A DNA stretch of 64,000 nucleotides, taken from contig JAFXSH010000078.1 in assembly GCA_017525805.1 (NCBI GenBank), positions 29,441 through 93,440 of the forward strand, given 5' to 3'. The stretch comes from Clostridia bacterium (GTDB lineage: Bacteria > Bacillota_A > Clostridia > Christensenellales > Aristaeellaceae). Positions 2,885 to 30,255 of the stretch are shown piece by piece; within the stretch, counting starts at the first letter, position 1; the number at the start of each line of letters is the position of its first letter. The translations under genes were made by a program, and so were the position numbers. The notes beneath the pieces are model-generated. The model had not been told where the DNA came from. It was given only the letters and a program-made list of their open reading frames with translations, and searched no databases.

Positions 2885-3018
2885 ATGCTCAACCCCTTCC
2901 AGAAAAACTTAACGCAAAAAAGCGGGAACGAAACAGTATATGTCTGTCCCGCGGAATACATGCTTTTTCCCGCTGCCGCTTTTGCGGCCCGGCTCCCAAA
3001 GGCCTGATCATTGAATTG
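2885..3018 (-). promoter_or_regulatory. Structured 5' leader of the CDF gene, candidate metal riboswitch
   Basis: The transcript from the minus promoter begins near 3018. In order it holds a GGCC...GGCC pairing, a perfect GCCGC-AAAA-GCGGC hairpin, and two copies of GCGGGA (near 2969 and 2952). It ends with a terminator whose 3' arm, TTCCCGC, is complementary to both copies. That gives two mutually exclusive folds: terminator formed, or 3' arm held by the first copy. CDF genes of Clostridia are known hosts of NiCo (czcD) riboswitches and other metal-sensing leaders. I cannot align this one to a consensus by eye, so the class is a suggestion. Confidence 0.5.
2914..2952 (-). terminator. Leader terminator ahead of the CDF gene
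   Basis: Read on the minus strand: GCGGGAC, loop, GTTCCCGC with one bulged base, then six T. It lies between the promoter and the start codon, so it can only be useful as an attenuator. Confidence 0.8.
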
Positions 3019-3023
3019 TCCCT

Positions 3024-9209: not shown

Positions 9210-9220
9210 TAGAGTTTTTC

Positions 9221-9278
9221 TGGGGGAGCCTCTCTTTGATGCCCAAAGAGAGGTTCCTCCATTCCCGCTCCGAGAGAG
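9221..9278 (+). repeat. Dispersed palindrome, copy 1 (degenerate)
   Basis: Arms GGGGGAGCCTCTCTTTG and CAAAGAGAGGTTCCTCC are followed by a tail ATTCCCGCTCCGAGAGAG. It matches the four-copy family (also at 9587, 12333 and 30194) whose consensus is a roughly 20-base perfect arm pair plus a directional tail like CCCCCTTCCGAGAAA. This copy has the most mismatches. Its left arm can instead pair with AGAGAGGC at 9273-9280 just before a run of six T (9283-9288), which would make a terminator for the DegV gene. Confidence 0.75.
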
Positions 9279-9586: not shown

Positions 9587-9648
9587 CTTTCTCGGAAGGG
9601 GGCCTGGGGGAAACCTCTCTTTGGCCTCCAAAGAGAGGTTTCCCCCAG
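9587..9648 (-). repeat. Dispersed palindrome, copy 2, inside the hisS T-box leader
   Basis: Arms CTGGGGGAAACCTCTCTTTGG and CCAAAGAGAGGTTTCCCCCAG are a perfect 21-base pair around a 3-base loop. The directional tail lies on the left (TTTCTCGGAAGGGGG), so this copy is inverted relative to copies 3 and 4. It lies about 25 bases before the T-box core. Confidence 0.9.
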
Positions 9649-9700
9649 AAAACTTCCCTCTGGCGCGCAAGCAGGGTGGCACCGCGAAGGTTTTCTTCGT

Positions 9701-12318: not shown

Positions 12319-12332
12319 AAAAGAAAATTATT

Positions 12333-12393
12333 CCGGGGGAAACCGCTCTTTGTGACCAAAGAGCGGTTTCCCCCGGTCCCCCTTCCGAGAAAG
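12333..12393 (+). repeat. Dispersed palindrome, copy 3
   Basis: Arms CCGGGGGAAACCGCTCTTTG and CAAAGAGCGGTTTCCCCCGG surround a short loop, 14 bases after the aspS stop. The directional tail TCCCCCTTCCGAGAAAG follows on the right. There is no T-run directly after the stem, so it is not a plain terminator. Confidence 0.9.
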
Positions 12394-12457
12394 ACATAAA
12401 AGGGTAGTCTTATCAATAGCACTTTGCGCTGATTGCGTAGTTGAAAGTGAATTTGGG

Positions 12458-12722
12458 GTTACCATTCACATATTTTGAGAGCGTCCAAGCGACACGCAAA
12501 CAGGGGGTTCGTCAAGGGGTCTCCCCTTGACTGTAATCCGCAGGCGGCGGCATGTACGTCGCCGAGGAGCAACAGAATGTTGCTTCCTCTATCAATTTCT
12601 GGCCGTGAAATGAGCGTTTTCGCTTGCGAAAATGCCATTTCACAAGAAATTGATGCATCGAATGGAAGTGGAATCCCAATTCCACTTCCATTCGTACCAT
12701 TCAGCGTTAGCTGAATGGTAAC
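12458..12722. repeat. Nested multi-hairpin element with 11-base terminal inverted repeats
   Basis: The outer arms GTTACCATTCA (12458-12468) and TGAATGGTAAC (12712-12722) are perfect. Inside are consecutive hairpins: 12481-12497 (GCGT/ACGC), 12512-12530 (TCAAGGGG/CCCCTTGA), 12565-12587 (GCAACA/TGTTGC core), and 12591-12654 (a long stem with ATCAATTTCT/AGAAATTGAT outside and GTGAAATG/CATTTCAC inside). Then come 12659-12694 (perfect 16-base arms CGAATGGAAGTGGAAT) and 12696-12719 (ACCATTCAGC/GCTGAATGGT). The last hairpin uses the same bases as the right terminal arm, so the two pairings exclude each other. No coding potential is convincing. It could be a MITE-like mobile element or a structured RNA. 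Confidence 0.75.
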
Positions 12723-12730
12723 GATTTTAG

Positions 12731-12759
12731 TTGCCAAACGCCCCAAAATCTGCTATACT
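12731..12759 (+). promoter_or_regulatory. Sigma-A promoter for the Asp23 cluster
   Basis: TTGCCA, 17 bases, TATACT, with AAGGAGG and an ATG about 30 bases later. It starts nine bases after the multi-hairpin element. Confidence 0.8.
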
Positions 12760-30193: not shown

Positions 30194-30255
30194 CTGGGGG
30201 AAACCGCTCTTTGGAAGCCAAAGAGCGGTTTCCCCCAGACCCCCTTCCGAGAAAA
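30194..30255 (+). repeat. Dispersed palindrome, copy 4
   Basis: Arms CTGGGGGAAACCGCTCTTTGG and CCAAAGAGCGGTTTCCCCCAG are a perfect 21-base pair around AAG. The directional tail ACCCCCTTCCGAGAAAAC follows on the right. It lies between the permease and binding-protein genes of the second sugar operon. Confidence 0.92.

Follow-up and report, generated by a model that had tools for sequence, protein, structure and literature searches.

A hairpin-rich, MITE-like element family of gut and rumen Clostridia with one modular core, two end types, and two target habits

Introduction

Upstream of the asp23 cluster in the 64,000-nucleotide stretch of Clostridia DNA analyzed here (the window) lies a non-coding sequence of 265 bp crowded with nested hairpins. 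A preliminary description made from the sequence alone placed it between a dispersed palindrome (12333–12376) and the promoter of the cluster, where we also find these neighbors (the promoter by eye), and offered three readings: a MITE-like element, a structured RNA, or a recombination site recognized by its secondary structure. Which of these accounts for the element, and how did it reach this site?

Results and Discussion

Anatomy of the element and its competing folds

The terminal inverted repeats are perfect over 11 nt, exactly as first described, and at least five internal hairpins had been claimed where we located six (H1–H6; Table 1), among them the predicted hairpins of 16 perfect pairs and of 64 nt. 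None of 200 dinucleotide shuffles folds as stably as the element (z-score −11.0). The direct repeat TACCATTCA starts at 12460 and 12695, as described, and the right terminal arm doubles as an arm of the last local hairpin; via the direct repeat, the left arm is a second possible partner, and the two terminal folds are mutually exclusive. Folded as RNA they are predicted to be nearly equal in energy, at −127.6 kcal/mol with the local last hairpin and −127.5 kcal/mol with the terminal arms paired, whereas the local hairpin is favored in DNA folding (−78.4 versus −72.5). The competing terminal arms are, at least on paper, a real feature of the element. The denial of any coding sense also holds in substance: open reading frames of 62–95 amino acids run mechanically across the element, and core lengths among copies differ by non-multiples of three. 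No second copy was found within the 64-kb window.

Table 1. Coordinates of the element, its flanks, and other features of the window.
Feature	Position	Strand	Remarks
Full class-1 element	12458..12722	+	265 bp; non-coding
Left terminal arm GTTACCATTCA	12458..12468	+	Matches class-1 left ends
Hairpin H1, sequence variable	12511..12531	+	115 distinct H1 segments pair near-perfectly
Hairpin H2	12543..12563	+	Absent from RNAalifold consensus of core alignment
Hairpin H3, covarying stem with near-invariant G.U	12564..12589	+	Alignment columns 34-56; G.U at 35-55 in 56/58
Hairpin H4, long	12590..12655	+	64-nt hairpin of the preliminary description is 12591-12654
Hairpin H5, 16 perfect pairs	12659..12694	+	
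Hairpin H6, right terminal arm in common	12695..12720	+	
Right terminal arm TGAATGGTAAC	12712..12722	+	Class-1 right end
Left target-duplication copy GAATTTGG	12449..12456	.	Single G separates copy from element; 6/8 vs right copy
Right target-duplication copy GATTTTAG	12723..12730	.	Adjoins element
Asp23 promoter-like TTGCCA-17-TATACT	12731..12759	+	Just downstream of element; read by eye
Dispersed palindromes, GGGGGAAACC-CTCTTTG...CAAAGAG-GGTTTCCCCC type	9219-9264, 9604-9649, 12332-12377, 30194-30239		Second family; four window copies
NiCo riboswitch	2942-3019	-	Rfam, 51.7 bits vs cut-off 37

A dispersed family with a restricted host range

The N-terminal part of the neighboring Asp23 protein retrieved 60 loci, the closest 93–94% identical, mostly in metagenome-assembled genomes (MAGs) of rumen and gut Clostridia (two are titled Christensenellaceae). 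Thirty genomes, taken from 30 of these loci, were searched with the element DNA, and 29 contain matches (G028 has none); in one orthologous pair (L061/L062) the window unit is present at 86% over query positions 1–262. We aligned the H2–H4 core of 58 copies (alignment A1) and built from it a covariance model, R1, which omits H2 because the RNAalifold structure of the alignment leaves this hairpin out. The core of the window element scores 142.9 bits against R1. Among 100 relatives of one host, 34 have matches to the model, with at least 35 matches in each of the best genomes. Scoring stopped at 25 candidates per genome in the DNA search and at 35 in the R1 search; per-genome copy numbers from both are lower bounds. 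The 34 positive relatives are the 29 genomes of the first set and five others, two of which have a single weak match, and most other relatives among the 100 have no R1 match. This is, then, a dispersed family of restricted range.

Searches of plasmid and phage collections with the element gave no matches. We did identify a copy (L293:4196-4322) in a viral contig of 5 kb, IMGVR_UViG_3300021387_000748, where the genes on its two sides match the PHROGs families of a major head protein (E 8.7e-55) and a head maturation protease (E 7.9e-68). The element therefore passes between replicons.

Class-1 copies and their 8-bp target duplications

Ends of two types, CAGACTGTC-type and GTTACC-type, occur across the family. 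The window copy belongs to class 1, with ends GTTACCATTCA...TGAATGGTAAC and an 8-bp target duplication. Both ends were called in 23 class-1 copies, and 22 remained after removal of a miscalled class-2 copy (L162), which stays in the null. The flanks of 15 of the 22, including two from one orthologous site (L061/L062), match at 7–8 of 8 bases, compared with 1.4% of mismatched pairings. Perfect duplications are present in 8 of the 22, compared with 0.4% of those pairings; one pair in the set (L124/L125) has identical flanks. The duplication of the window copy is imperfect (6 of 8 bases). A similar flank without the element, ...ATCGGAATTTAGTTGCC, occurs at L001, where comparison by eye gives GGAATTTAGTTGCC as the empty site; R1 finds no match in this locus.

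At the same site, L002 carries a related element whose duplication matches at only 4 of 8 bases. Its left arm (GTTACTACTCA), the 5′ arm of its last hairpin (GTTACTAC), and its right arm (TGAGTAGTAAC) differ from those of the window copy in a concerted three-way change. L027 and, in degenerate form, L022 hold further members of the family at a similar position ahead of the asp23 promoter, which may therefore be a site of repeated insertion.

The interior of class-1 copies is modular. Short forms carry H1–H3 only (L306, L309, L310, and L313), and others have quite different hairpin blocks (L311 and L314). In the search for a gene-bearing copy, the right end lies within about 480 nt of the left end in all eight class-1 loci read, of 50 left-end matches in seven genomes.

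The MITE-like reading

The suggestion of a MITE-like element is supported by these data. Like MITEs, the copies are short, non-coding, numerous, and dispersed, and have terminal inverted repeats; their fold is conserved and covarying, class 1 has 8-bp duplications, and an empty site exists. The family has been mobile in evolution, with two end types and two target habits around a common modular core, although class 2 (below) departs from the fixed-length duplication expected of MITEs. We consider it very probable that the window copy is a non-autonomous MITE-like DNA element with an interior of hairpin modules, inserted upstream of asp23 by a trans-acting transposase that duplicated about 8 bp. 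Each end type would have its own transposase acting in trans, and pairing of the hairpins and terminal arms may matter for excision or end recognition. Against the MITE-like reading stand the imperfect duplications of the window copy and of its same-site relative in L002, the failure to find a transposase or an autonomous copy with matching ends, and cores that are unchanged at five of nine comparable orthologous sites despite changed flanks. The last is not what simple decay of a dead insertion predicts.

Many class-2 copies lie between duplicated terminator-like hairpins

A sister class (class 2) combines the core of class 1 with CAGACTGTCGA-type ends. Here too, the left arm is similar to the 5′ arm of the last hairpin in the copies read. 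The class-2 survey covered 161 copies including that of the window; contig ends truncated 19 of these, and two more were skipped by hand (L264, and L290, which repeats L078). Flanks were long enough in 140, of which 63 carried class-2 ends on both sides. A direct duplication abuts the element within 3 nt in 37 of the 63, with a score that exceeds the 99.9th percentile for mismatched flanks (15.05); the highest mismatched pair reaches 24.5, above some positives, because terminators resemble one another. One genome, G016, contributes 16 of the 37 positives. The other 26 copies are negative, among them two pairs, the orthologous L117/L121 and L254/L259, and in several of the 26 the hairpin on one side appears by eye to be degenerate or absent.

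The class-2 duplications are 18–41 bp long (median 25), and 23 of the 37 are perfect. All but one (36/37) fold as a hairpin that runs foot to foot across the duplication. Furthermore, an A-tract or T-tract adjoins 35 of the 37, whereas each tract type occurs in about 8–9% of random 12-mers. These flanking tracts give the class-2 targets the look of intrinsic terminators. The habit of landing on terminators and duplicating the terminator hairpin is unusual, and our literature search (open-licence papers, by titles and abstract openings) found no description of the element family or of terminator-hairpin duplication.

Genome G016 has near-identical copies at different terminators, with plain ends and duplications, and a scan for the left end (up to 3 mismatches) gave 84 matches versus one for the reversed pattern. 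These copies make the class-2 mechanism testable. Four G016 copies cut by contig ends (L224, L226, L228, and L229), also of class 2, carry a near-identical 'TATTCCGCGAGCTCAAAGGTCG...' block in the loop of H1.

Orthologous sites without the element carry a single hairpin where the filled sites have two copies: L250 compared with L103, and L295 and L296 compared with L260. Both flanks of L250, L295, and L296 align to the filled sites. Other DNA lies beside the single hairpin, however: another palindrome in L250, and a stretch of several hundred bases in each of L295 and L296. These empty class-2 sites are therefore good but not clean. For L103, four genomes were compared, of which G003 was usable, one had no match, and two could be aligned just on the gene side; for L260, of four genomes, G003 and G001 were usable and two could be aligned just on the other side. 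The same test of L147 in five genomes yielded no usable site.

How could class-2 insertion duplicate a hairpin?

Because duplication length follows the hairpin, integration appears to be guided by structure. The simplest reading of the class-2 duplications is foot cuts and repair of a recognized palindrome: an integrase would act on the terminator palindrome, extruded or otherwise recognized, make staggered cuts with each strand opened at the foot of the hairpin, and leave gap filling or repair to duplicate the hairpin whole. We lean, by a small margin of confidence, toward a system in gut and rumen Clostridia that recognizes the folded shape of a terminator and cuts at its feet to duplicate a hairpin of any sequence or length (18–41 bp), with a cargo in common with the 8-bp MITE class. 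If so, the size of the hairpin would determine the duplication, in place of a constant stagger, and the system would choose its targets in a distinct way. The host would also keep a terminator on either side of the insertion, and the choice of target is possibly harmless because of this. For the window copy, the secondary-structure recombination site first suggested is not demonstrated, even though copies of the sister class do insert at hairpins.

An ordinary long-duplication transposase of the IS1202 group could instead move class 2 without true hairpin recognition, the terminators being merely tolerated. The group has duplications of 16–28 bp, unusually long as in class 2, and no specific target was found for it (PMC10132070). 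It encodes a transposase, unlike the elements described here, and it is the nearest lead for the mobilizing enzyme. However, class-2 duplications vary in length (18–41 bp), and all but one of the 37 are foot-to-foot hairpins. A search of the 30 genomes with the ISNCY model NF033594, which may not cover IS1202, gave weak matches in five and none over the cut-off. We regard mobilization of this kind as improbable.

Group IIC introns use terminators as targets, and CRISPR spacer integration by Cas1–Cas2 duplicates the repeat. The likeness of class-2 targets to terminators, and of the duplicated hairpin to a duplicated palindromic repeat, would fit insertion mediated by RNA (reverse transcription, or a group-IIC-like route at terminators) or by a Cas1-like enzyme. 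Foot cutting as proposed above would resemble Cas1–Cas2 repeat duplication, but on terminators. Reverse transcriptase (RVT_1, PF00078) was detected in only 6 of the 30 genomes and Cas1 (PF01867) in 3, neither of them in G016 with its 84 left-end matches, although MAGs may be incomplete. Intron ribozyme features were sought via Rfam, where no family passes the cut-off at the element. We rejected both a retroelement or group IIC intron and casposon- or CRISPR-type integration as candidates, and an RNA-mediated or Cas1-like route is very unlikely.

The remaining two of the five enzyme models searched did not track the element either, and the search yielded no mobilizing enzyme. The Y1_Tnp domain (PF01797) was identified in 10 of the 30 genomes, G016 among them, and an R1 scan of six Y1 and five ISNCY loci gave only one match, at chance level (E 0.75). 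These results and the existence of target duplications led us to reject membership in the IS200/IS605-RAYT (REP-like) group. Likewise, the ISAs1-family transposase (PF13808) occurs in one genome of 30. In the 20 stretches read among the 84 left-end matches in G016, no copy with a core or an element-like interior contains a gene, several being cut by contig ends, and no autonomous relative with matching ends was found at the sites inspected in these fragmented MAGs. Two coreless left-end matches within open frames (L211 at 2735 and L216 at 1352) look like chance.

Conserved pairing, RNA function, and the origin of perfect stems

Covariance modeling of the copies predicts 36 pairs in the 58-copy core alignment, and in 25 of these both sides have changed in compensation at least once. 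Near-invariant G.U pairs stand at columns 35–55 (56/58 copies) and 60–138 (57/58). This strong covariation and the two conserved pairs favor a folded single strand, as would be expected if the core were a functional structured RNA, acting as a cis element or sRNA, that mobile ends have spread and on which selection acts. Furthermore, G.T (G.U) exceeds A.C by 101 to 42 over all hairpins measured (p=9e-7). The excess is concentrated in H4 (75 to 26, a single sequence context supplying 29 of the 75) and in conserved G.U pairs, however, and shrinks once G.U-majority pairs are set aside: the whole core then gives 22 to 16, and H4 gives 19 to 12 (p=0.28). H1, H5, and H6 give 26 to 16 (p=0.16), and the Rfam search returned no family above cut-off at the element. 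What stands of the structured-RNA suggestion is that pairing is kept by compensatory change with an overall G.U excess, whereas no clear strand bias is seen outside G.U-majority pairs; we consider selection on an RNA unlikely.

Orthologous copies bear on the same question. Of 15 orthologous element pairs, we excluded two, L124/L125 and L254/L259, whose identical flanks mark them as likely mis-binned contigs, and compared core and flanks in the others. Seven pairs at five sites (L061/L062, L064/L065, L117/L121, L131/L132/L133, and L256/L262) have no core changes although their flanks differ by about 1 to 14%, in keeping with a constrained RNA. The unchanged cores could result from constraint, but equally from conversion, from recent transfer, or from assembly. 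By eye, the intergenic sequence around the element also looks nearly unchanged in L131/L132 and L256/L262. Six pairs at four sites have diverged cores; one such group differs by a 69-nt module present in L105 and L120 and absent from L096 at one orthologous site. Extra structured modules, such as GGGCCCGAAGCGCCCGGAAAAC...GGGCGGGCCGGAAGGCCCCGGGCA, also lie inside or between hairpins in L098, L099, L105, L120, L127, L140, L148, L218, and L223.

The hairpins could also stay perfect without selection on pairing, through templated (hairpin-copying) mutation or the swapping of whole modules. The stems of H1, H5, and H6 are near-perfect Watson–Crick helices with few wobble intermediates, and copies such as L002, L311, L313, and L314 differ by whole blocks. 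Such processes leave unexplained the motifs conserved across the 58 core copies, some of them unpaired in the model, and we rate them as somewhat doubtful. With its many variants, the family lends itself to testing whether selection, templated mutation, or module exchange maintains the perfect stems of bacterial repeats.

Comparison with known repeats and other features of the window

The closest parallels by description are the BOX and RUP repeats of Streptococcus pneumoniae. These are short and strongly folded, with a modular organization (BOX), terminal repeats that pair mutually, target duplications, and insertion into one another (PMC3049150). The likeness to our family is drawn from these descriptions; the host clade is another, and here one core is combined with two kinds of ends, one of which duplicates terminator hairpins. 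SPRITE repeats of S. pneumoniae are associated with terminators and gene 3′ ends, but SPRITE is itself a terminator-like hairpin for which duplication could not be established (PMC3049150). The class-2 element, in contrast, is distinct from the host terminator, a copy of which lies on each side of it.

The NiCo riboswitch is the sole Rfam family above cut-off across the window and lies away from the element (Table 1). A weak match to Clostridiales-2 RNA (RF02937) at 12497–12572 has two hairpins of similar spacing, but its 20.4 bits are far below the 58.6-bit cut-off and it covers only H1–H2; it is probably chance or remote. Palindromes similar to the second dispersed family of the window occur in the relatives L002, L004, L022, and L250, and that of L250 adjoins the empty class-2 site.
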